Part shown: in pieces, positions 35,670-46,195 of the stretch
Layout: each line of letters starts with the position of its first letter
Numbering within the stretch: the stretch's first letter is position 1
Source of the DNA: Flavobacteriales bacterium
GTDB lineage: Bacteria > Bacteroidota > Bacteroidia > Flavobacteriales_D > Crocinitomicaceae
Reading direction: 5' to 3'
DNA length: 64,000 bases
NCBI GenBank assembly: GCA_015665275.1
Contig: JADFAL010000040.1
Span: 1 to 64,000, forward strand
Position numbers and translations under genes: made by a program
The notes under the pieces: model-generated
What the model saw: the letters and a program-made list of their open reading frames with translations, nothing else
What the model was told of the DNA's origin: nothing
Databases searched by the model: none

Positions 35670-36248
35670 TTAGCCTTTTACCACCTGAATGAACAACTCG
35701 CTCCCTTGTCTAGGAGTAATGGAATTATAACAAGGTTCCATATTGATTCGGTCAAACGCAGAGAAATAGCTGACGTATTCTTCCTTGTTTCCACCGTACG
35801 GAGGGCCGCCCTCAAAATCACGACTGAATAGTACCCCAACCAGTTTTCCGTCAGGTTTCAATAGATTATACACGGTGTCAGCATATCTCTGGCGAAGTAC
35901 CGGATTAATAGCACAGAACATCGTTTGTTCGAAAATGAAATCGTATTCTCCCTTGTGCTCAAAAAAATCTCCTTGATGTAATTGATCATTAGGAACTTCT
36001 GGGCATCTACTTTTTAAGTTTTCCAAGGGCTCTTTCGCTAAATCAATTACGTGCACGTTTTGAAATCCTTGTTTCCATAAATATTCCGCCTCGTAACCAT
36101 TACCACAACCGGGAATGAGAATTCGGACATTTTTATCCGTTAGTTGATCGATATAGGCCTTAATCGGCGGGCTTACTTCTCCAAGATCCCAACCTGTAGT
36201 TCCAGATACGTAGCGACTTGCCCAAAATTCTTCTGATAAATGTTCCAC
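35670..36248 (-). CDS. TPMT-family class I SAM methyltransferase
   Basis: 192 residues. Thiopurine S-methyltransferase-family hallmarks: FWASRYVSGTTGWDLGEVSP at the N-terminus, motif I ILIPGCGNGYEAEYL, and FEQTMFCAINP. Bacterial relatives methylate thiols, selenium or tellurium species. The start is GTG at 36248, only nine nt after the stop of the BtuG-like lipoprotein, so this is the last gene of the B12-riboswitch operon. A role in that operon (for example on corrinoid ligands or thiols) is unknown and would be inference. Confidence 0.87.
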   Translation of the reverse strand: MEHLSEEFWASRYVSGTTGWDLGEVSPPIKAYIDQLTDKNVRILIPGCGNGYEAEYLWKQGFQNVHVIDLAKEPLENLKSRCPEVPNDQLHQGDFFEHKGEYDFIFEQTMFCAINPVLRQRYADTVYNLLKPDGKLVGVLFSRDFEGGPPYGGNKEEYVSYFSAFDRINMEPCYNSITPRQGSELFIQVVKG

Positions 36249-36257
36249 GAATGAAAA

Positions 36258-37307
36258 TTAATCAAAAAAGAGAAGCTTTGTTGGATTCAGTCCTACTTGA
36301 TAACTGGTTAAGTAAGAACCCGTCATATCGTACTTACGCACTACTCCTTCATTCGTATATCCCATGGCATCCAAAATGTAGACGTTATCTTCGGAAGCGC
36401 GGTATTGAACCCGATACAAGGTATTTACCGTTGCCATGTCAATTGGAATGGTAGCTACAACATCATCTGATTGGAAATTAAAGCGTTGCACTCCAGAAGC
36501 GTTATAGACGAGCATATCGGTTGCAGACATTGAAGTCATTCCGCTAATATCAAACGCGTAAGCAGTATTTACAACTTGATCTGTTAGGGGATCAATCTTT
36601 CGCAATCGAGAAGGAATGGGACCGTAGTCTCCACGCGAGATCACGAAAATATCTCCGGCATCATTGGCCAGTACCCCACCTGGATTAATTCCTACGGATA
36701 TCTTTTGCAATTCCGTATTTGTAGCAATATCGATAACTGAAACGGTAGAATCTACATCAGGAAAATTCAATCCGCCTGAATTGGCAACGTACAACTTGTT
36801 GTTGCTCACCGCAATTCCTTCGGGATTCTCCCCTACGCTAATTCGTGTGTCAATAGTCAGACTGGCTGTATCCAACACATCCACAAAACCATCATAGCAA
36901 GTAATATAAACTTTACCATTGGCCGAAGCCATGAATCGTGGTTGTTTGGGCTGACCATTCTCTGTCATTTGAATTTGCTCAATCGGCGAAAAATCGGATG
37001 CGCGCATTATCTCAATGGTAGATGAAACATTCACAACGATGTAGATCTTATCACCGTAGCGAATCATGTCATTTCCTGTATCTCCCAGAGCACGACTCGT
37101 TTTCGTTTGAAAGAAAGACGGATCTTTCGCACCGCCTGGCAGTTGCACCCAAGTAATACTGGAGTTATTATGCTGATAGAGCCCTTCACACAAGACAACC
37201 ATACCGTTTTCTAGGTTGTTTACCTCTGGAACGAATGGTTGTGGTCCATCCTCATTACACGAAGTTAAAACCAAGGCTATTGCGGCAATGAGATTAAAGT
37301 ATTTCAT
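36258..37307 (-). CDS. BtuG-like seven-bladed beta-propeller lipoprotein
   Basis: 349 residues. Lipobox VLTSC with acylated Cys17, then YncE/DUF5074-like propeller repeats (VGENPEGIAVSNNKLYVANS, VGINPGGVLANDAGDIFVIS). In Bacteroides, BtuG is a surface propeller lipoprotein that grips cobalamin and hands it to BtuB; the order riboswitch, BtuB-like receptor, propeller lipoprotein here matches that system. It overlaps the end of the receptor gene by 14 bases. Assignment as B12-binding is by fold and context, not by proven residues. Confidence 0.78.
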   Translation of the reverse strand: MKYFNLIAAIALVLTSCNEDGPQPFVPEVNNLENGMVVLCEGLYQHNNSSITWVQLPGGAKDPSFFQTKTSRALGDTGNDMIRYGDKIYIVVNVSSTIEIMRASDFSPIEQIQMTENGQPKQPRFMASANGKVYITCYDGFVDVLDTASLTIDTRISVGENPEGIAVSNNKLYVANSGGLNFPDVDSTVSVIDIATNTELQKISVGINPGGVLANDAGDIFVISRGDYGPIPSRLRKIDPLTDQVVNTAYAFDISGMTSMSATDMLVYNASGVQRFNFQSDDVVATIPIDMATVNTLYRVQYRASEDNVYILDAMGYTNEGVVRKYDMTGSYLTSYQVGLNPTKLLFFD

Positions 37308-39297
37308 AATTCAAGGTCAATAAGAAGTGTCTTCCTGGCATTACATAAGAACGAATAAATGCGTAGGAAACATTGGTTAAGTTGCGCACGTTAATTTGTA
37401 CGCCAATTTTGTGTTTATTTTTAACGGTGTACTTGTATCCAACCGCTGCGTCTAGTGTCCAGAAAGGGTCCAAATAATTAGCCGGGACGTTCTGATTCAA
37501 AGCATATCTTCCCGAAACGAAATTGTTGGAAATGCGCATGTTTAATGATTTGTACATAAACATGATATCTGCATTCGCCGTGTGTTCAGGAGCATAAGCC
37601 ACTTGATGTCCGTTGGTAATTGCTCCCGGTGTAATGTCGATGACGCGTTGCCAAGTATAATTGGCCAAAAATTCGATCCGGTTTTCACCTCTAAACCTTC
37701 TAACGACTCTTGCTTCAGCTAGTCCGCCGTAAATCATGGCTTCGTCTACATTCTGCATGGACCAAATAAATAAATTCTTAGTTGGAATTGCTACAATCTT
37801 GTTTTGTACACGGTTGAAATATCCTTGGGTATTTATTTCAAAGCGCCAGCGGTAGTAATTTTCGCGAATCTTCCAATTATAGCCTAAATCAAATTGATGC
37901 GCGATTTCTGGTTGAAGATTGCTATTTCCTACTTCTCCGAAGTATAACTCGTTAAAGGAAGGCAAACGGAAATTTCGTTTGTACAAGAATTCCAACTTCA
38001 TTTGCGGCTTGCGCGGAATTTCGTACTGAACTGAGGCACTTGGCGTGAATTGCACATGTGTTTTCTGAGATTCGCCATTATCATCATACATCAATTGGGC
38101 GCCTGCAATAGCTTCGAAATTAAAGGCATTGTGCATCTTTTTTGCTCCGAATAGTCCGTAGGATGAAGACCTGAAGGGTACCCCCAATACTTCACGATTA
38201 CTCTGCAATGCCTCTATTTTCTCCTCAAGTCCCCACTTAAGAGCAATTTTATCGAATTGTTTGTTTTGAATATAACCTCCATTGAGACTTAAGTTTTGGA
38301 ATTGGTCTTGAACAAAACCTGCAGCGCTCAAATACGTTGGATCAAAATATTCCAAATTATTAATTCCACCGTTCAAGTAGAACCGCATTCTATTTTGGTA
38401 CTTATTAATAATATAATCTGCCATGAATCGATGATCCTGAGTGTTCATGCGCTCATCAGCGGACTGATTGTACAATAGAACGGCTCCCGGCAATCCTTGA
38501 TCCATGAAAGAAGAGCGATAGATGATTTTTAGTTGGCTATTGTCCTTGATCCTACGCCCCAATTTGAAACCAAAGTGCATGTCCTGATAGTCGTTATTTC
38601 CGCGAACATTATCCGTTAAGGTAGCACCGTTCAAAAACTGATACGGATAAGAACCGTCTGCATCTCGAAATTTACCAAAGGCGGCAACGCTCCACTTCCC
38701 AAAGGATCTATCTCCTTGCAAATAAGCTTCTCTTCGTAAGAATGATCCGTAACGGACCGATGCCTTCAGTCTTGTTTTATCGCGTCCAAAACCGAGCATG
38801 AAGGTGTTGAATTGCAAATAATTACCTGTGAAGTTTGCAGATACAGATTGTAATCCGTCAAAGACCAATTGTGTTCCGGCTAAAGCACTTTCCAAACCTT
38901 CAGACTGCAATTGTCCAAGGTTCATTTGCCCAGCTTGTGCATTGGTTACTTGAAAATTATCGATTATTACAGCGGTGTGCTGACCGCCAAGTCCTCGCAT
39001 GGAAACGGTTTTCAAGCCACCCAGACCGCCGTAAGATCGAACGGTAGCGCCCGGAACCTTTGATACCAAACCTGCGACATCGTCAGTATTCAGAAGCTCA
39101 ATATCATCCTTTGTTAGCCCTTTCAATGGTAGCATCCGAATCATCACAATATCCTGAACGCCAATTCTCACCGCATCAATATGTTTGACCAACACGATAC
39201 TTGTATCCACTTCCACCTCTTCTTGAGAAAAGGCATAAGTCGAGAGGATAAGCATCCCCCCGACTAAGCAACTATTTTTTAACCAACTATTCTTCAT
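37294..39297 (-). CDS. TonB-dependent receptor, probable cobalamin transporter
   Basis: 667 residues. Signal peptide (MKNSWLKNSCLVGGMLILST, ending AFSQ), plug domain (GLVSKVPGATVRSYGGLGGL, VSMRGLGGQHTAVIIDNFQV) and a 22-strand barrel ending with an aromatic-terminated strand (FLLTLNYEIL). It has the compact size of BtuB rather than the about 1000-residue SusC type. Position directly after the riboswitch-led first gene and before the BtuG-like lipoprotein makes vitamin B12 or other corrinoids the likely substrate. It should draw energy from TonB-ExbBD, which are not encoded nearby. Confidence 0.85.
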   Translation of the reverse strand: MKNSWLKNSCLVGGMLILSTYAFSQEEVEVDTSIVLVKHIDAVRIGVQDIVMIRMLPLKGLTKDDIELLNTDDVAGLVSKVPGATVRSYGGLGGLKTVSMRGLGGQHTAVIIDNFQVTNAQAGQMNLGQLQSEGLESALAGTQLVFDGLQSVSANFTGNYLQFNTFMLGFGRDKTRLKASVRYGSFLRREAYLQGDRSFGKWSVAAFGKFRDADGSYPYQFLNGATLTDNVRGNNDYQDMHFGFKLGRRIKDNSQLKIIYRSSFMDQGLPGAVLLYNQSADERMNTQDHRFMADYIINKYQNRMRFYLNGGINNLEYFDPTYLSAAGFVQDQFQNLSLNGGYIQNKQFDKIALKWGLEEKIEALQSNREVLGVPFRSSSYGLFGAKKMHNAFNFEAIAGAQLMYDDNGESQKTHVQFTPSASVQYEIPRKPQMKLEFLYKRNFRLPSFNELYFGEVGNSNLQPEIAHQFDLGYNWKIRENYYRWRFEINTQGYFNRVQNKIVAIPTKNLFIWSMQNVDEAMIYGGLAEARVVRRFRGENRIEFLANYTWQRVIDITPGAITNGHQVAYAPEHTANADIMFMYKSLNMRISNNFVSGRYALNQNVPANYLDPFWTLDAAVGYKYTVKNKHKIGVQINVRNLTNVSYAFIRSYVMPGRHFLLTLNYEIL

Positions 39298-40284
39298 CTA
39301 TTTTACAACTATCCGATTCGTATACGAATCAGATGCATTGTTCCAACGAATTACATAAACTCCTGAAGCAAAGTTTGAAACATCAATAGTAGATTGTCCA
39401 TTATGTGACTCCGCGTAAAGTACATTCCCCTGCATGTCAACTATTGACAGCTGTCCTTCAGGAGCACTTACATTCACAACATCAGATGCTGGATTCGGAT
39501 ACATTTCAATAGCTAATAATTCATTAGACGTTAATCCAACGCCCCCCATAGTCTTGATATCATCTATAGCGATATATTCGGGCGTATTGTTATAAATCCC
39601 ACTTTTATCAGACGAATCAAAACTGAAGTTAACCTCTGTAACTGGGAATGAAAATTCCGTGGTCAAATCAACCGTCTGCCAAGTATCTACAATATAATCC
39701 ATGGTGCTGTCGGCAAATCGATAGTCGGCAAGGTAGAATTCCATTGAATCCAATTCACCTTGATCGTTCGATGCATAAATCCAAAGAATAAAATAATCCT
39801 CTCCGTTCGTTCCATCTACAACTCCATTGGCATTAACCGTGTCTCCGAATACTTTGCCCAACCAGTTTCCGTTTTCCATGACTAATTTTGTCCATGCTGT
39901 ATTCGTGAAACTGAATTCTGTAATTTGCGTATTTGCACTTTCAACACTCATGGTACCCGATGAAGTGTAGATTGCGTAATTGGCTGATCCACCAAATCCG
40001 CTTCCTGTTACAGAACTATATTGATTTGCTGAACTTTGCGTTGAAACATCGGTAGTGTTTGAAATTGCATATCCACCCCAGAATCCTCCCCAAGACGTAT
40101 CGTAGTAATTTGTCAATCGAATCGACTCAGTTTCGGTCAAAACGAAATCTCCACCACCATGAGTGGGACCTCCATTATCGTAAGACTCTGTGCCTAACGT
40201 GTAAGATTCGAAATCGAATGTTGATTGTGCAGCTACTGTTCCACCCACTGCAAGGGCGATAATTGATAAGTAAATTTTCTTCAT
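39298..40284 (-). CDS. DUF4465 protein with T9SS type A sorting domain, first gene of the B12 operon
   Basis: 328 residues. Signal peptide MKKIYLSIIALAVGGTVAAQ; a DUF4465 domain (about 30-250) with GGFWGGYAISNTTDV, DSMEFYLADYRFAD, DTWQTVDLTTEF and YIAIDDIKTMG; then a T9SS type A sorting domain (about 255-328: IEMYPNPASDVVNV, IDVSNFASGVYVIRW). DUF4465 proteins recur in B12 loci of Bacteroidota, and I believe the BtuH-type surface B12 binder is a relative, though I cannot verify this here. The T9SS tail implies delivery to the cell surface by T9SS rather than as a lipoprotein. Its stop abuts the receptor ATG. Confidence 0.85.
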   Translation of the reverse strand: MKKIYLSIIALAVGGTVAAQSTFDFESYTLGTESYDNGGPTHGGGDFVLTETESIRLTNYYDTSWGGFWGGYAISNTTDVSTQSSANQYSSVTGSGFGGSANYAIYTSSGTMSVESANTQITEFSFTNTAWTKLVMENGNWLGKVFGDTVNANGVVDGTNGEDYFILWIYASNDQGELDSMEFYLADYRFADSTMDYIVDTWQTVDLTTEFSFPVTEVNFSFDSSDKSGIYNNTPEYIAIDDIKTMGGVGLTSNELLAIEMYPNPASDVVNVSAPEGQLSIVDMQGNVLYAESHNGQSTIDVSNFASGVYVIRWNNASDSYTNRIVVK

Positions 40285-40399
40285 CGTTTCATTTTTGAAG
40301 TGTTTAACGTTGAAGAATCAGCTAAATGAGAGATATGGCATTGCCTGTACACTGCAATGAGCATAAATCCGACTTTGATCTGAAGTCTTCATTAATATG

Positions 40400-40545
40400 A
40401 CCAGGGCAAGTATTCTGACTCGTACCATATCGGCTTCGTCTTCCCATGAACGCGGGGAGCATTCACAGTGACATATTGAAACCGACTTTAAGTACTTACA
40501 GCTGCAGATACAGTTCCGGATTTACACCGGATTCCTTTTTAATCC
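40400..40545 (-). promoter_or_regulatory. cobalamin (B12) riboswitch
   Basis: Minus-strand reading shows the conserved core in order: GGAATCCGGTGTAAATCCGG (40538-40519 region), AACTGTATCTGCAGCTGTAA, a GTCACTGTGAATGC segment, and the B12 box GAGTCAGAATACTTGCC (40421-40405). It lies in the long leader between a promoter at 40574-40604 and the DUF4465 start at 40284, about 115 nt before the ATG. No terminator hairpin with a T tract follows, so control is probably at translation initiation of the first gene. Confidence 0.93.
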
Positions 40546-40573
40546 CAACTTAATTGTAGAACCAAAGTCGCAG

Positions 40574-40604
40574 CAAATGTACGACATTAATTAAGGCGAG
40601 GCAA
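40574..40604 (-). promoter_or_regulatory. promoter of the B12 riboswitch operon
   Basis: Minus strand TTG at 40604-40602, 20 nt spacer, exact TACATTTG at 40581-40574. Transcription would start near 40567, giving a leader of about 280 nt that contains the riboswitch. It sits 13 bp before the stop end of the CotH gene. The 332-bp gene-free stretch 40285-40616 is therefore fully explained. Confidence 0.8.
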
Positions 40605-40616
40605 TGGGTAGTGCTG

Positions 40617-42689
40617 TTATTTAAGAACTACCTTCTTTGAAAGGGATTGATCACCAGAGTTTAAGGTGACGAAATAAATACCTGATTGTAGGTTACTAAG
40701 GGCTGAAAACGAGGCACTATTGATAACCTGCAAACCATTTGAGGTAAGCTCATCTTCCCAAAGCAGACGCCCATTAACATCCGTGACGGAAACGGAACAA
40801 TTATCCGAGAATGCATTGAATTCGATATAAAAATCTCCATCAGTTGGATTCGGAAAGATTTTCAATTCCATTTCTTCAATGGTTTCATCTACTGATAAAA
40901 ATGTACAATCACCATTCGAACCTGGCAAATTCGCATCGAGCCAATCCAATCGGTTTTGAATCCATTCTTTCAAATAAAGTATCTCTTGAGAATAAGTCCC
41001 AGCAACTGTATTGTTCGGCCACACATAGGTTCCGAGAATATCCCATCGATCAAAATTTCGTTGTTGTGCATTCGAAATCAAAGCTAAATTGGAATCGATA
41101 TGAGCAAAGATGGAATCGGTGTGATACGGTCCTTCTCTTAATTGATCCCATCTGCATCGAACTCGATTGCTAAATTCAGGGTCCGTTAACAATCGCTCCC
41201 ACCAAAATGGAACTTGCCAATTATCCCCTGGACAAACATCATTGAACTGATATGCCCACCCCGTAACATCACTTCCATCGCAATAATCAGCATTTCCGAA
41301 AGCCAAGTTATAATCCCATGGTGGACCAATTCGAATCTTTCCGTATTTACTGTCTTTATCTTTGATTAAAAAGGTGCTAATTCTGTATCCGTCTACATTT
41401 CGAACTGCTTCCGACAACAAAAAATAATCTACGAATGAATTGATTTCTGCCAGAGAACGATAACCAACGGATGGATCTTGATAATTCGACCCGTTTAATC
41501 GATCTTCAAATGAATCAAAATAGGACTGAATATATAATTCTTGCGCTGGAACTATAGAATCTGGTTTTGGATAATGGTAAAAGAACTCAACTTGCTGTGG
41601 ATTGGATGACCAAGTAGAATGCTGAGATGTCCAAGATCCGTTGTTGCCTCCAGTACTTTTGTCAATTTTCACAATGTAACCACCCGTTAAATCATCGCCA
41701 GTAATTTCAGTGCTCGATAAAACAGAAATATCCACACGTCCTTCATCCCTCTTAATTTTTTCGGCGAACAAATATACACCTTGATAGATTCCATTGATGA
41801 TCAGTTCGCACAATTGAGTGCGCGGACTGTACCCAGTAAGATGACTTCCCATATAGTATGCGAGTTCATTCCGCATTAACGTTTTATCGCTGTAAGGACC
41901 GTGCAACACCCAATCATTTTCTGCTGGCATTCCAAACAGAGATACGTTATTATTAAATCCTTGAAGGTCTCGCGTTTCCAAACCATATCCCTTTTTCGGA
42001 AACATAGAAGAAGAGCTTCCTCGTTGTTCAATTCCAATGAATCCATCATATCCAAAGGGCGGATCCGTAGCATGATTCATATTTCCCGGTCCATTATCAA
42101 TGATTTGCATAGTTCCTGTTGCCTTTGGCTCGTCTGGAATAGGAAAAATGGATGTATTGATATAAACTAACGGGATTTCACTAGAATCTGGCGCAACAAT
42201 GTTACTTAAGGTAATGTCAATCTGGTAATTTCCGGATGATCCTCCGTTGTATCCGTCGACCACAAAAAAATACGAAGTATTGGCTTGTAAAAGTACAGCA
42301 TCGATTCTGGAATTGTACTGAGCATTGTACGCAGGAGACTGACAACCATCTTCCTGACAGCCAACAAGATTTCCTCCACATGTTCCTTCGTAGATATAAA
42401 TTTGGGAGTCGTAATTAGTGACTGCTTCACAAACGCTTACATCAACAATGACGTTCGTTGCTCCATTATCAAATCGGTATACATGATCCGGCGCTCCTCC
42501 TTGGTTCCCTACATCTGGACAACTTTCGAAATAGTCATCATTGGCTCCCACGGTTGATCCCTGACCAGAAAATGGAAGATTGCTAATTACAGTGGCATTG
42601 GCACAATCCTCTCCTCCAGACTGTCCGAAGGCGGAAATGGAACATACTCCTAGTAAAACAATAGTGAGAAAAACTTTAGTTCGTTTCAT
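40617..42689 (-). CDS. CotH kinase-fold protein with T9SS sorting domain
   Basis: 690 residues. Signal peptide MKRTKVFLTIVLLGVCSISA ending FGQ; an N-terminal beta-sandwich (about 24-175, with four paired cysteines); the CotH domain (about 180-600) with KKGYGLETRD, NDWVLHGPYSDKTLMRNELA and KIRIGPPWDYNLAFGNADY, the last resembling the metal-binding segment of CotH kinases; and a T9SS type A domain (about 620-690, LKIFPNPTDGDFYIEF). CotH in Bacillus spores phosphorylates Ser-rich proteins; surface versions in Bacteroidota have unknown substrates. A near -7 box TACTTTAG lies at 42714-42707. Monocistronic. Confidence 0.88.
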   Translation of the reverse strand: MKRTKVFLTIVLLGVCSISAFGQSGGEDCANATVISNLPFSGQGSTVGANDDYFESCPDVGNQGGAPDHVYRFDNGATNVIVDVSVCEAVTNYDSQIYIYEGTCGGNLVGCQEDGCQSPAYNAQYNSRIDAVLLQANTSYFFVVDGYNGGSSGNYQIDITLSNIVAPDSSEIPLVYINTSIFPIPDEPKATGTMQIIDNGPGNMNHATDPPFGYDGFIGIEQRGSSSSMFPKKGYGLETRDLQGFNNNVSLFGMPAENDWVLHGPYSDKTLMRNELAYYMGSHLTGYSPRTQLCELIINGIYQGVYLFAEKIKRDEGRVDISVLSSTEITGDDLTGGYIVKIDKSTGGNNGSWTSQHSTWSSNPQQVEFFYHYPKPDSIVPAQELYIQSYFDSFEDRLNGSNYQDPSVGYRSLAEINSFVDYFLLSEAVRNVDGYRISTFLIKDKDSKYGKIRIGPPWDYNLAFGNADYCDGSDVTGWAYQFNDVCPGDNWQVPFWWERLLTDPEFSNRVRCRWDQLREGPYHTDSIFAHIDSNLALISNAQQRNFDRWDILGTYVWPNNTVAGTYSQEILYLKEWIQNRLDWLDANLPGSNGDCTFLSVDETIEEMELKIFPNPTDGDFYIEFNAFSDNCSVSVTDVNGRLLWEDELTSNGLQVINSASFSALSNLQSGIYFVTLNSGDQSLSKKVVLK

Positions 42690-42753: not shown

Positions 42754-45183
42754 TTACGCCTTCTTCTTGTTCTTATCCAGTTTATAGGTATACTGAAGCA
42801 TAATCGTTCGTGGTGCTTCAATCTTAAGTGGACGAAGCGAATAAACACGATTGAAGATATTGGAACTGATCACCGCAATTTTATGCGTTTCCGTGATTTG
42901 GTAGGACATTCTTGCATCAAAAATCCAGTTTCCATTTCGGTTGTTGTTGAAGTAATCCATATAGCGGATGTTCTGAACAAAAGGAGGTGTGGTACTCGTT
43001 TCAAATTCTTCTATTACGCCATCTAGATTCAAGATTTTACTGAAGTATCGTGCACTGGCTCCAATAGCAAATTTCTCACGAATCATCACTTCCACATCCA
43101 TTTTCACATTATGTAAGAAACGATATTTTAGAATTCCATTGGTTGAATCCAGCGATGTTGAATTGTAGCTATAATCACTTCCCAGAATATCCGTTGCATA
43201 CACCAAATCTGGCGTTAATGTTTTAGGAACGATATAATTATATCCGGTAATAAAAGTCATTTCGGCCTTCTTTCCTAGTTTTGCCTTTCCTGAGAAAGAA
43301 ACGTCAATTCCGAGAACTCTCGACTCGCCTGTATTTCTAAACTGGAAGCCGTACGTGTTCGATGGATCGGTTGGATCTTCTCCCCAGAACCCAAACAAAT
43401 ACTCTATGGTATTGTCATATTCTTGCCAGAAGGCAGCAACATCCAGATACCCGAATAAGTCTCCAAATTTAAGTCCTTGTTTGATTCCCACTTCAGCATT
43501 CCAACTGCTTTCTGGTAACAACTCAGGATTCGGGAACACACCAAAATTGCCTACCCCTGTTCGAATGTAACGCTCTGTGATTGTTGGGAAACGATATCCT
43601 TGTCCGTACGAACCACGTAAGTACGTTTCTTGATAGAGTTTGATACTTGCTCCTGCGCGGAAAATAGGTTTCAATGCGGTAATGGAATCGTTTAATTGAA
43701 AATATTCCAATCGACCTCCAATGGATAAATTTAGAGTTTGTCTCACCTTTTTCTCCAGCTGGGTATACGCAGAAATATTCAGCAATTGATTGTTTGGACT
43801 TCCTCCTCCCGCATACAGATTCGCGAATGAATTGGTGAATGTGCTGGTAACGCCTCCAATAAAATCTAGGTCATTCAGGTTCTGGTAACGCTTTTTGAAC
43901 ATGTAATCTCCGTAGTACACCTCCGATTGGTTCGATTGATTTGCGGTCAATTCGTTATCCGTATATAGCAAACGTGCTCTGAAACTGTGCTTTCCACTTG
44001 CTTTCGTAAAGAAATTCAAGAAAGGATCGACATTAAAAATGAACTGCTCTTGCAAGAAAACGGCTCCGGGATATCCTTGAAACAAGCCAGAAGAATCGTT
44101 GAGCCATGCGAAAGTTAAGTTGGACTCTGAATACATTACGTTTCCATTGATTCCATAGTTCAAACCTTTGTGTTTCTTGGAGCGGCGTCGGATATTAAAA
44201 TTACCTCGGATACGTTGCATGGACATCTGTTGTTCTGAAAAATTAGAAACCGAATCAACAATTCCAGGATCTGTTACTGGAGGTCCTAAATATCCATGGT
44301 CGTAGTTCACGTTTCCACCCAAAACAATATCCCATTGTCCTGCGCGACGTGTATGTAAAAAATTGGCTCCAGTAATCAACGGCACGCCTGTCCACCATGT
44401 TCCACCTTCTACTCCTGGATTCGAATACAGCCCGGTGTAAACGTTTACTTTGGTTTTCGGTTTTAAGCCCGGATATGCCGTTCGAATATGAATCGATCCC
44501 GAAAGCGCTGAACTTCCAGAAAGCACAGAAGCCGCTCCTTTGGTTACTTCAATTTGATGGATATTTTCTACAGGAATGAATCCCCATTCAGGGCGCCCCG
44601 CATCTCCTGAAAGCATGGGCATGTCATCCACAATAACCGCTACTTTCGATCCAACGCCAAAGGTGAATCCACTCCCACCGCGGATTTGAGGTTCTCCGTC
44701 CAGAATATTCAATCCCGGAGTTTGATCCAGTGCCGTTTCAATGCTTCGCGTGTTTTTGTTCTCAATAAGTTCGGGTTTCAATATTTCCATGGAAACCGTT
44801 TGATCTTCGAAAGGTTTATCGAATTTCCCAACGCGTACCGTTACGTCATCCAATTGCTTCACATTCGGATCAATGAATGGCTTCAGAACAATGTCTTGGG
44901 TGATCGTATTTCCTTTGATAATGGTTAAGTCCAAGGTATCCGTTACCATTCCTGTAAACCTACAAACCACGCGTACATCTCCAGAAGGCAATTCAATGGT
45001 ATAATTCCCATCCAAATCCGACAGCGCTCCAATGGTAACATCGCCTTTGTAAACAATAGCCGCACCGATGAGAACTTCACCTTCGGTATCTGTTACTTTA
45101 CCCATTAATGTTCCCATGTTTTCATCTTGGGCAAAACCCCAAAAACTCATACATGTGAAAAGAAATACGAAAATCTGTTTCAT
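42754..45183 (-). CDS. TonB-dependent receptor with CarboxypepD-regulatory N-domain
   Basis: 809 residues from the ATG at 45183 (MKQIFVFLFTCMSFWGFAQ). After the signal peptide comes a regulatory Ig-like domain (about 25-105, GKVTDTEGEVLIGAAIVYKG, ALSDLDGNYTIEL), then plug (NTRSIETALDQTPGLNILDG, QIRGGSGFTFGVGSKVAVIV) and barrel ending RTIMLQYTYKL. The eight codons upstream of 45183 in frame lack a signal. It follows the PCMD-domain gene on the same strand across a terminator-like hairpin, so the two probably form an uptake pair with attenuated readthrough. The substrate is unknown. Confidence 0.87.
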   Translation of the reverse strand: MKQIFVFLFTCMSFWGFAQDENMGTLMGKVTDTEGEVLIGAAIVYKGDVTIGALSDLDGNYTIELPSGDVRVVCRFTGMVTDTLDLTIIKGNTITQDIVLKPFIDPNVKQLDDVTVRVGKFDKPFEDQTVSMEILKPELIENKNTRSIETALDQTPGLNILDGEPQIRGGSGFTFGVGSKVAVIVDDMPMLSGDAGRPEWGFIPVENIHQIEVTKGAASVLSGSSALSGSIHIRTAYPGLKPKTKVNVYTGLYSNPGVEGGTWWTGVPLITGANFLHTRRAGQWDIVLGGNVNYDHGYLGPPVTDPGIVDSVSNFSEQQMSMQRIRGNFNIRRRSKKHKGLNYGINGNVMYSESNLTFAWLNDSSGLFQGYPGAVFLQEQFIFNVDPFLNFFTKASGKHSFRARLLYTDNELTANQSNQSEVYYGDYMFKKRYQNLNDLDFIGGVTSTFTNSFANLYAGGGSPNNQLLNISAYTQLEKKVRQTLNLSIGGRLEYFQLNDSITALKPIFRAGASIKLYQETYLRGSYGQGYRFPTITERYIRTGVGNFGVFPNPELLPESSWNAEVGIKQGLKFGDLFGYLDVAAFWQEYDNTIEYLFGFWGEDPTDPSNTYGFQFRNTGESRVLGIDVSFSGKAKLGKKAEMTFITGYNYIVPKTLTPDLVYATDILGSDYSYNSTSLDSTNGILKYRFLHNVKMDVEVMIREKFAIGASARYFSKILNLDGVIEEFETSTTPPFVQNIRYMDYFNNNRNGNWIFDARMSYQITETHKIAVISSNIFNRVYSLRPLKIEAPRTIMLQYTYKLDKNKKKA

Positions 45184-45191
45184 ATTGAGAT

Positions 45192-45220
45192 AAAAAGGGC
45201 CGAACATTGCTGCTCAGCCC
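45192..45220 (-). terminator. hairpin with T tract between the PCMD gene and the TonB receptor gene
   Basis: On the minus strand GGGCTGA, loop, TCGGCCC (7 bp, one G-U) runs into five T. It lies 22 bp after the stop of the PCMD gene and just before the receptor ATG at 45183, so it could reduce rather than block receptor transcription, since no separate receptor promoter is visible. Confidence 0.7.
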
Positions 45221-45241
45221 GTTATTAATTCGTTTAAACTA

Positions 45242-46195
45242 TTATTGGTGGTATACCTTAAAACGCTTGGATTCGTTTCCTACAAGTACATTAACCAAGT
45301 AGATTCCAGTTGGAGCATCAAACGCTACCGTTGGAGCTGTTTCTCCTGAAAGAACAATAGATCCTGACATATCCACCACTTCAAACTTCCCTTGCTCTCC
45401 TTTCACTTGGAAGTTCAATTCGCTTGTTTGATTGTTCATGAATACATTTACTGGGAATTCATTCCCTTCCGACAATCCATTGTTGTTATAAATTAGTTCA
45501 ATATCATCCACCCAAACTTGATCATTCGCATCACCGCCACCTGGGGTTGCATTTGTAGTGAAAGTCACAAGAAGATATGCTACGTTCGAAGCTGGACCGC
45601 TATAATCGAAAGGTACAGACATTCTCACCCATCCACTTGTATATTGGTAGTTGAGTTCCGCTGTTGCGACCACTTCATCAGATGAAGCTGCATCTTCTGG
45701 ATCACGATAGTCGTAATCGTCATGCAAAGTAGCCTTCATTCGCGCTTCCTCAGAACCACCCAAAGAATCTATTGGAAGATAGTTCACCCAAAACACAATG
45801 GAATCAGGCATATCTGAAAATGCTTCAGAAAACTCTGCATCTCCCGTTCTTGTAATATTATGGTTCGCTGGATCACTAGCAACAATTGCTCCCATGTTAA
45901 CTTGTCCTAGAGTTAGGTTTCCATTGGCGGTAACACCAAATCCTGCATCTCTTGACCAAATTCTAGCGCTTGTAGTTCCTGAAGATCCCGGACGTACGTT
46001 TGTAGATTGCTCCACTTGTACGTCAGCGGCAAACGTAAAGCCACCAGATGCAGACATGAAACTGTTCCAGTTTACGGGCTCTTCACCAGCCGAGGCAGCT
46101 TCCCATTGTTCAAAGTCTGAATTTCCAATTTGAGTCTGTGCAAATCCACAGAAAGAAAGCACCGCTAAGGATGCCGATAGTAATAAATGTTTCAT
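45242..46195 (-). CDS. PCMD-domain exported protein with a T9SS-like C-terminus
   Basis: 317 residues. Signal peptide MKHLLLSASLAVLSFCGFAQ, then a PCMD-like beta-sandwich (about 20-235; QIGNSDFEQWE, SIVFWVNYLPIDS, ARMKATLHDDYDYRDP, QVWVDDIELIYNNNG), a fold often linked to carbohydrate or glycoconjugate binding. The C-terminal 75 residues (FEVVDMSGSIVLSG, PTGIYLVNVLVG, SKRFKVYHQ) resemble a T9SS type A sorting domain but lack the usual YPNP motif. Located upstream of a TonB receptor with a clear promoter, it is a likely surface binding partner of that receptor. The ligand is unknown. Confidence 0.78.
   Translation of the reverse strand: MKHLLLSASLAVLSFCGFAQTQIGNSDFEQWEAASAGEEPVNWNSFMSASGGFTFAADVQVEQSTNVRPGSSGTTSARIWSRDAGFGVTANGNLTLGQVNMGAIVASDPANHNITRTGDAEFSEAFSDMPDSIVFWVNYLPIDSLGGSEEARMKATLHDDYDYRDPEDAASSDEVVATAELNYQYTSGWVRMSVPFDYSGPASNVAYLLVTFTTNATPGGGDANDQVWVDDIELIYNNNGLSEGNEFPVNVFMNNQTSELNFQVKGEQGKFEVVDMSGSIVLSGETAPTVAFDAPTGIYLVNVLVGNESKRFKVYHQ

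Follow-up and report, generated by a model that had tools for sequence, protein, structure and literature searches.

Scavenging of vitamin B12 decides competition in many microbial communities, and what is known of the surface machinery for it comes mostly from gut Bacteroides, in which the binders examined so far are lipoproteins. Two publications of 2025 and 2026 assign to this machinery DUF4465, a domain that until lately lacked a function and whose members are now classed as B12 binders, the BtuJ family (PMC12751083, PMC13398666). The members in Bacteroides thetaiotaomicron were named BtuJ1 and BtuJ2; structures and sub-nanomolar binding were reported for BtuJ1, and BtuJ on vesicles delivers cobalamin (PMC12751083). 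In all, eight DUF4465 members bind B12 (PMC13398666), and the family hallmark is an HI-loop motif, NTPxY, with a B12-binding tyrosine (PMC13398666, PMC12751083). Here, we analyze a stretch of 64,000 nucleotides (hereafter, the window) from a Flavobacteriales bacterium of the Crocinitomicaceae (GenBank assembly GCA_015665275.1, contig JADFAL010000040.1), in which the first gene of a compact cobalamin riboswitch operon encodes a DUF4465 protein that carries a C-terminal sorting domain (tail) of the type IX secretion system (T9SS) in place of a lipid anchor. This arrangement is the rule in the order rather than an oddity, and in most of the relatives the operon includes a second tailed protein, family X, which likely is related to the B12 binder BtuH.

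A preliminary description of the locus, drawn from the sequence alone, had taken the first gene product for a DUF4465 protein with a T9SS type A tail, and both domains are borne out by profile searches (Table 1), with the tail scoring 53.8 bits against Por_Secre_tail (PF18962; cut-off 27) and 50.2 bits against TIGR04183 (cut-off 23). The N-terminus, MKKIYLSIIALAVGGTVAAQ, was judged by eye to be a signal peptide, and no lipobox was detected in the protein by regular expression. The description had suggested comparing the DUF4465 domain with known B12-binding surface proteins; an AlphaFold2 model built with the sequences of 27 relatives (predicted local distance difference test [pLDDT], 88.7) was closest to the B12 binder BtuJ1 (9fct; Z = 25.2, root-mean-square deviation [rmsd] 2.4, 210 residues aligned). 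Six DUF4465 structures (9fct, 9qpm, 4jqr, 9hmu, 9i2l, and 4e9k) matched the model at Z scores of 20.3 to 25.2; beyond these entries, the next match (Z = 11.2) falls onto the tail, and the best other match onto the DUF4465 domain has a Z score of 8.8. Foldseek agrees on the DUF4465 fold (9hmu, 1.2e-14), and the modeled domain is an augmented jelly-roll. The last 75 residues of the model match the tails of T9SS cargo proteins, namely mirolase (8qb1, Z = 10.9) and NucA (8glk, Z = 10.4); further domains of the beta-sandwich type, for example 8u01 (Z = 10.7), match as well. In an alignment of 141 sequences, the position of Tyr237 in the HI-loop motif is occupied by Tyr in 127 and by Phe in 12, and the proline of the motif is kept in 139. 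The same alignment also has aromatic columns, candidates for the DE-loop-helix tyrosine of the family (Tyr146 in BtuJ1). The window protein probably binds B12 outside the cell.

Closer to the window, an experiment on a member of the same bacterial family bears on this assignment. The genome of Fluviicola taffensis RW262 (G498) has a single DUF4465 match, which contains both DUF4465 and Por_Secre_tail according to Pfam, and a purified DUF4465 protein of F. taffensis, "Fluta" (F2I9N3), binds B12 (PMC13398666). We infer that F2I9N3 is the product of this tailed gene; because the sole DUF4465 match of F. taffensis is tailed and the F. taffensis protein binds, binding of B12 by a tailed orthologue has very probably been demonstrated already.

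The preliminary description had further proposed a genome survey for DUF4465 proteins with T9SS tails under B12 riboswitches. Of 399 order genomes, 142 contain DUF4465, compared with 11 of 395 sampled across the whole phylum. The order sample consisted of 141 loci: the window plus a single locus from every other DUF4465-positive genome except G770, in which the match is in two fragments (140 loci; one place was taken from genomes with several matches). A profile derived from 22 unrelated tails, all taken from other proteins encoded in the window genome, identified a T9SS tail in 127 of the 141 DUF4465 proteins; nine others, all from one genus (g183), have a lipobox instead. The remaining five, counted as not tailed, run off contig ends (L046, L118, and L182), are broken in two frames (L183), or represent an odd fusion (L146). 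The tail profile matched none of 3235 reversed open reading frames (ORFs), nor any of 134 BtuB, 111 BtuG, and 31 TPMT ORFs. A lipobox detected in the tailed L074 protein lies within the signal peptide and was judged a false match of the regular expression. On a tree of DUF4465 (FastTree only; 138 proteins, 131 from the 141 and 7 from elsewhere, with long branches among the latter), the anchor state changed at least three times by parsimony, with two changes forced by starred branches, compared with 12.6 in shuffles. As a separate observation, the L146 protein (L146:6002-7504; 500 residues) has its DUF4465 domain behind an N-terminal extension, and no tail, lipobox, or riboswitch was found there; the other members of its genus in the sample are lipoproteins.

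The riboswitch and four genes proposed in the preliminary description, and a promoter-like element, were all recovered where it had placed them, on the minus strand (Table 1). Genes 1 and 2 abut, genes 2 and 3 overlap by 14 bp, and genes 3 and 4 are 9 bp apart. The covariance search on which the description had staked its riboswitch returned RF00174 at 99.9 bits (cut-off 31.5; E = 9.1e-24), the sole cobalamin riboswitch over threshold in the genome (3.64 Mb, 115 contigs). A second model, R1, built from the window and 10 loci and then run on those loci too, matched 99 of 100 and 37 of 40 order loci (136 of 140 relatives); in the ten R1 source loci, Rfam confirmed aptamers in 10 of the 10 scanned, at 83.5 to 114.7 bits. 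All 136 riboswitches precede the DUF4465 gene in the same orientation, so the layout of the operon is not due to chance; 11 of them are located more than 1 kb upstream, as in loci where the BtuB gene comes first. Four loci have no R1 match: the odd fusion L146 and three in which the gene lies at most 174 bases from a contig end. In two loci (L142:3264-3512 and L151:4891-5139), the R1 match is in two weaker pieces, as if the aptamer were doubled or interrupted. The promoter-like element conforms to the consensus TTG/TAnnTTTG, which we take to be the Bacteroidota-type promoter. The bare TAnnTTTG motif is not enriched over chance in the window (46 occurrences, 58 expected); it lies 15 to 60 bp before 71 of 98 riboswitch cores located by regular expression, compared with 3% of random 45-mers. 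Scans for terminator-like and sigma-70-like elements gave no useful result for the operon.

The second and third genes encode the putative receptor and its lid. The receptor combines a TonB barrel (PF00593, 101.2 bits) with a plug (PF07715), and its best NCBIfam match, TonB-B12 (TIGR01779), scores 62.6 against an equivalog cut-off of 599.7; in agreement with the preliminary description, we consider it a BtuB-type receptor, a call made by context only. The description's BtuG-like propeller lipoprotein is well founded: the protein contains a DUF5074/BtuG-type propeller (PF16819, 60.4 bits; cut-off 27.2), matches BtuG1 of B. thetaiotaomicron (8blw_B) at E = 1.7e-53, and has a lipobox at Cys17 (..VLTSC-NEDG) detected by regular expression. 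Across the order loci, 106 BtuG genes are complete, none of which encodes a tail and 95 of which encode a lipobox, with 11 missed by the regular expression.

A second tailed protein of about 320 residues, family X, occurs within the stretch fetched in 102 of the 141 order loci and is tailed in 94 of 99 complete copies. The most common gene order is DUF4465-BtuB-BtuG-X (44 loci), followed by the same order with TPMT added (17) and DUF4465-X-BtuB-BtuG (10); the pattern of the window, DUF4465-BtuB-BtuG-TPMT, was found in six loci including the window. Outside the tail, none of 10 X proteins scored over a cut-off in Pfam, and none of 6 did so in NCBIfam. X is absent from the window operon, and an orphan copy is present in the same genome (G000:C20:39748-40701), next to genes that by eye resemble those for a FeoB and a TPR protein. 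This copy was rejected as a part of the operon, with no BtuB or BtuG in the nine surrounding ORFs and no riboswitch in 20 kb. In the wider genome set, 80 X loci are named, the best-ranked of 576 confirmed candidates, so the linkage figures lean to close relatives: a tail is present in 77, a same-strand BtuB or BtuG gene lies nearby in 65, and a riboswitch occurs in 59, always upstream and in the same orientation; 74 have either BtuB/BtuG or a riboswitch. In seven loci, X and DUF4465 are fused, six times as X-DUF4465-tail and once as DUF4465-X-tail (one of each was checked with Pfam). A relationship between X and DUF4465 themselves was rejected, the probability in a profile comparison being 0.25%.

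Searches with the X sequence against solved structures yielded only T9SS tails and chance-level matches, and a repeat search at E values up to 10 produced two matches (E = 0.11 and 0.16), both judged to be due to chance. The structural model of X, built from 67 sequences (pLDDT 90.7; predicted TM-score 0.74), best matched BtuH2 (7biz; Z = 12.4, rmsd 3.0, 159 residues), specifically its C-terminal B12 domain, and then the H domain of BtuG1 (8blw, Z = 11.3), both obtained by VIA re-ranking of Foldseek candidates (994 re-aligned chains); PAPP-A (Z = 10.0) came third, and discoidin/CBM32 domains reached Z scores up to 9.2. Foldseek itself listed weak low-TM matches first, with BtuG1 (8blw) at rank 43 (E = 6.2e-4) and 7biz not among the 50 matches listed. 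The likeness of X to BtuH is thus based on this re-ranking and on profile comparison. When an alignment combining nine X proteins with eight distant X-like ones (A8) was compared by hhalign with a BtuH alignment (A7, the first member of which matches 7biz at 1.3e-206), the probability was 90% (E = 1.6e-6, 98 columns); a narrower X alignment without the distant members (A6) reached 19.7% only. A BtuH profile run over all ORFs retrieved, after BtuH itself, mostly X, from 5.2e-6 down, with many of the matches non-significant.

The B12-contact residues of BtuH2 include Asn399, Phe401, and Gln333 (PMC8941943). Taking BtuH2 residue numbers as the 7biz chain position plus 100, the VFENxF motif of X carries two of these contacts, Asn399 corresponding to Asn in 67 of 67 sequences and Phe401 to Phe in 60 of 67 (A5), compared with Asn in 7 of 9 and Phe in 4 of 9 in A7. 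Gln333, placed by eye on a PA(P/A)GQ motif, is Gln in 37 of 67 sequences in A5 and in 5 of 9 in A7. The profile-aligned stretch excludes the contacts His476, Tyr510, Trp511, Trp577, and Leu578. BtuH is modestly similar to AlyQ (PMC8941943), and the CBM32 of AlyQ is also among the matches of the X model. Overall, the model and the profiles suggest that X resembles the B12-binding domain of BtuH and is likely a B12 catcher. Distant X-like proteins, some of them untailed, were observed in loci L327 to L334, most of them beside BtuB- or BtuG-type genes; the L327 protein, which has no such neighbor, matches the BtuH domain directly (E = 0.0015).

Additional tailed components were identified in other Bacteroidota (Table 1). 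In Flavobacteriaceae, such as Winogradskyella, a second, tailed BtuG-like propeller is encoded beside an untailed BtuG. In metagenome-assembled genomes (MAGs) of Bacteroidota, many of them labeled Bacteroidales, X is preceded by a tailed protein of about 420 to 460 residues that is a relative of BtuG (profile probability 99.35%, 317 columns). DUF4430, presumably a transcobalamin-like domain, is present as repeats fused to X in one protein, and tailed DUF4430 proteins adjoin X in two more loci. A 787-residue T9SS-tailed WD40-repeat protein (L326:9568-11931) also adjoins X.

Table 1. Features of the window operon and of tailed B12-related proteins in other genomes
Feature	Position	Strand	Basis or remark
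Four-gene unit with promoter-like element and riboswitch	35670-40604	-	
Promoter-like element, TTG(40604-40602)-N20-TACATTTG(40581-40574)	40574..40604	-	Read from sequence
Cobalamin riboswitch aptamer RF00174	40388..40581	-	Covariance model, full model 1-189
Gene 1, DUF4465/BtuJ-type protein, 328 aa	39298-40284	-	ORF, Pfam
DUF4465 domain, residues 64-243	39556..40095	-	PF14717, 119.2 bits (cut-off 25)
HI-loop motif NTPEY, residues 233-237, conserved Tyr237	39574..39588	-	Literature motif and alignment
T9SS type A C-terminal sorting domain, residues 261-328	39301..39504	-	PF18962 and TIGR04183
Gene 2, BtuB-type TonB-dependent receptor, 667 aa	37294-39297	-	ORF, Pfam/NCBIfam
Gene 3, BtuG-type propeller lipoprotein, 349 aa	36258-37307	-	ORF, Pfam, lipobox
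Gene 4 (last of unit), TPMT-family methyltransferase, 192 aa	35670-36248	-	ORF, Pfam
X, example gene	L049:2790-3770	-	Alignments A2, A5, A6
X, example gene	L204:9001-9984	+	Alignments A2, A5, A6
X/DUF4465 fusions	L214, L223, L246, L249, L251, L252, L278		
Tailed BtuG-like propellers	L207:7673-8956, L221:7565-8866, and similar loci		Flavobacteriaceae and other Bacteroidota
Tailed DUF4430 repeats	L241:7489-9882, L277:1194-3305, L282:6872-8983		Downstream of cobalamin riboswitches, Bacteroidales MAGs

Given these observations, we interpret the window locus, with a probability of roughly 85%, as a B12-scarcity operon in which a T9SS-exported BtuJ-type catcher passes B12 to a lipid-anchored BtuG on BtuB. 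The elements of this scheme computed here are the riboswitch, gene order, domains, modeled folds, tail, PorU, metH, and conservation, and the remaining steps follow what is expected of the respective families. When B12 is scarce, the riboswitch would permit expression of the operon; the DUF4465 protein would cross the inner membrane through Sec and be translocated by T9SS through its type A tail, and PorU would then remove the tail, leaving the protein on or beyond the outer surface, either attached (to anionic lipopolysaccharide [A-LPS]) or released. There, the protein would bind B12 tightly and pass it on to BtuG, the lipid-anchored lid of the BtuB receptor, and the receptor would import it for methionine synthase. 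The search for T9SS machinery in the window genome covered the sortase PorU, which was identified with NF033707 at 1255 bits (cut-off 420). Two PorU-like matches were observed in tandem (G000:C43:15-7086), the first of which has two in-frame stops, which may reflect a broken copy or an assembly error. The metH gene is split between two intact ORFs, of 334 and 889 residues, that overlap; a pseudogene with in-frame stops was considered for this locus and ruled out. In the relatives, a second tailed scavenger, the BtuH-related X, would usually complete the set while the lid stays a lipoprotein, and the reading that fits best is one of a lipid-anchored lid served by T9SS-exported scavengers.

Several observations weigh against this interpretation. 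The receptor falls below the BtuB equivalog cut-off, and the residue before the conserved tyrosine of the HI loop is Glu in the window protein, compared with Ala, Thr, or Gly in most relatives. At least 150 tailed stretches over the cut-off, the one in the window included, were counted in the genome (150 of 208 candidates scored), and because tails are this common, the tail by itself is weak evidence of a special design. Finally, the available text of PMC13398666 names lipoprotein and periplasmic signals only and makes no mention of the tail.

The place in this scheme of the fourth gene, which the preliminary description had called a TPMT methyltransferase, is evenly balanced. The Pfam assignment is sound (PF05724, 95.7 bits; cut-off 26), and the NCBIfam equivalog cut-offs were missed (TIGR03840, 47.9 compared with 223.2), as might be expected if TPMT were a co-regulated hitchhiker with no part in B12 capture. 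A TPMT gene lies downstream on the same strand in 31 of the 141 order loci, 22 of them in the genus of the window, which points the same way; against this, in 26 of the 31 loci the gene is tightly coupled to the preceding B12 gene (BtuG or X) on the same strand, overlapping it or lying within 70 bp. We consider the two possibilities about equal. The match to CpaM, a corrinoid-protein methyltransferase, is weak (21.6 compared with 180 bits).

A different fate of the catcher deserves consideration, although we regard it as the lesser possibility: T9SS might free the protein into the medium, where it would act for B12 as siderophores or haemophores do for their ligands, to be recaptured by BtuG/BtuB. 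Work away from the cell has a precedent in BtuJ1 and BtuJ2 of B. thetaiotaomicron, which function on vesicles (PMC12751083). A freed catcher, however, would be shared and thus would help competitors, and the lipobox found in the place of the tail in one genus indicates that anchoring is tolerated. Furthermore, the genome encodes PorU, which in Porphyromonas gingivalis favors attachment to the surface.

It is somewhat less probable still, and in our view unlikely, that the tail is simply ordinary for the lineage and says nothing about B12 uptake as such. The abundance of tailed stretches in the genome would fit this, as would the upstream neighbor, a CotH protein (40617-42689) that is also tailed and lies before the riboswitch, outside the unit. 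However, the BtuG encoded by the same operon lacks a tail throughout the order (0 of 106), whereas DUF4465 and X are tailed, so the choice of anchor there is gene-specific; outside the order, the tailed BtuG-like proteins beside untailed BtuG again leave some room for an ordinary tail. Beyond CotH, window positions 42754-46195 contain a TonB receptor (817 residues) and a 317-residue ORF, both upstream of the riboswitch and in its orientation; ORFs of 808 to 815 and 313 to 328 residues occur in the same order in L076, L130, L141, and L148, a likeness of position and size. That the tailed protein acts in the periplasm as a BtuF-like carrier, in line with the periplasmic targeting signals said to be borne by non-lipoprotein members (PMC13398666), is highly improbable in view of the intact type A tail with a cargo-like modeled fold, kept in 127 of 141 loci, the lipobox in its place in one genus, and an earlier count by the same group that gives C-terminal extracellular targeting motifs (PMC12751083).

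With the T9SS-exported catcher and lipid-anchored lid preferred, the question arises of how much of this pattern is already in print. We take IPR026444 to be the T9SS sorting domain and IPR013424 the PEP-CTERM sorting domain. Among the 824 IPR027828 sequences in the count just mentioned, the C-terminal motif for extracellular targeting is IPR026444 in 229 and IPR013424 in 88; 275 are lipoproteins, 170 are periplasmic, and no signals are combined (PMC12751083). The name T9SS has no match in the available text of that article, and no further paper joining T9SS or sorting domains with B12 uptake appears in the listed titles and opening lines of abstracts, which does not prove absence. Because the 229 T9SS-type tails have been printed as an InterPro statistic, the tailed DUF4465 protein as a headline is not new. 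The preliminary description is sound in its observation and interpretation, with the limits that such proteins are the rule in the order and that its "distinct surface organisation", the tails having already been counted, is not wholly new. What is new for the specialist is the wider tailed pattern, above all family X, the putative BtuH relative unnamed by Pfam and NCBIfam. We lean toward the broader view, held with less assurance than the reading of the window itself, that many non-Bacteroides Bacteroidota have a second corrinoid-capture layer exported via T9SS and composed of tailed BtuJ-type DUF4465, X, BtuG-like, and DUF4430 proteins under cobalamin riboswitches, with the BtuG lid on BtuB lipid-anchored, and that the type of anchor marks function. 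These bacteria thus appear to route the same binders through T9SS, a route that predicts a location on the surface polysaccharide or in the medium rather than on the membrane or vesicles, T9SS-dependent B12 uptake, and an anchor swap on one domain.

The contrast drawn in the preliminary description with the lipid-anchored Bacteroides binders is correct, in agreement with PMC12751083 and with a Bacteroides-type locus (L316) in which BtuJ, BtuH, and BtuG all have a lipobox. The BtuJ1 and BtuJ2 proteins (BT_1491 and BT_1957; DUF4465/IPR027828) share with the window protein the family, the modeled fold, and the HI-loop motif, and both systems have a riboswitch operon with BtuB and BtuG; BtuJ1 and BtuJ2, however, are vesicle-borne lipoproteins, whereas the window protein has a T9SS type A tail and lacks a lipobox. 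The Fluta protein of F. taffensis is a DUF4465 protein like that of the window and probably is tailed as well, although the publication, in its available text, is silent on the tail (PMC13398666). BtuH2 is a lipoprotein that contains three PKD domains (PMC8941943), whereas X consists of a bare domain of about 230 residues and a T9SS tail. As in the BtuB-BtuG pedal-bin transporter (PMC10404256), the receptor gene in the window is followed by a gene for a BtuG-type lipoprotein; in contrast to that transporter, the window BtuG has no fused BtuH domain, and the accessory binder is T9SS-tailed.

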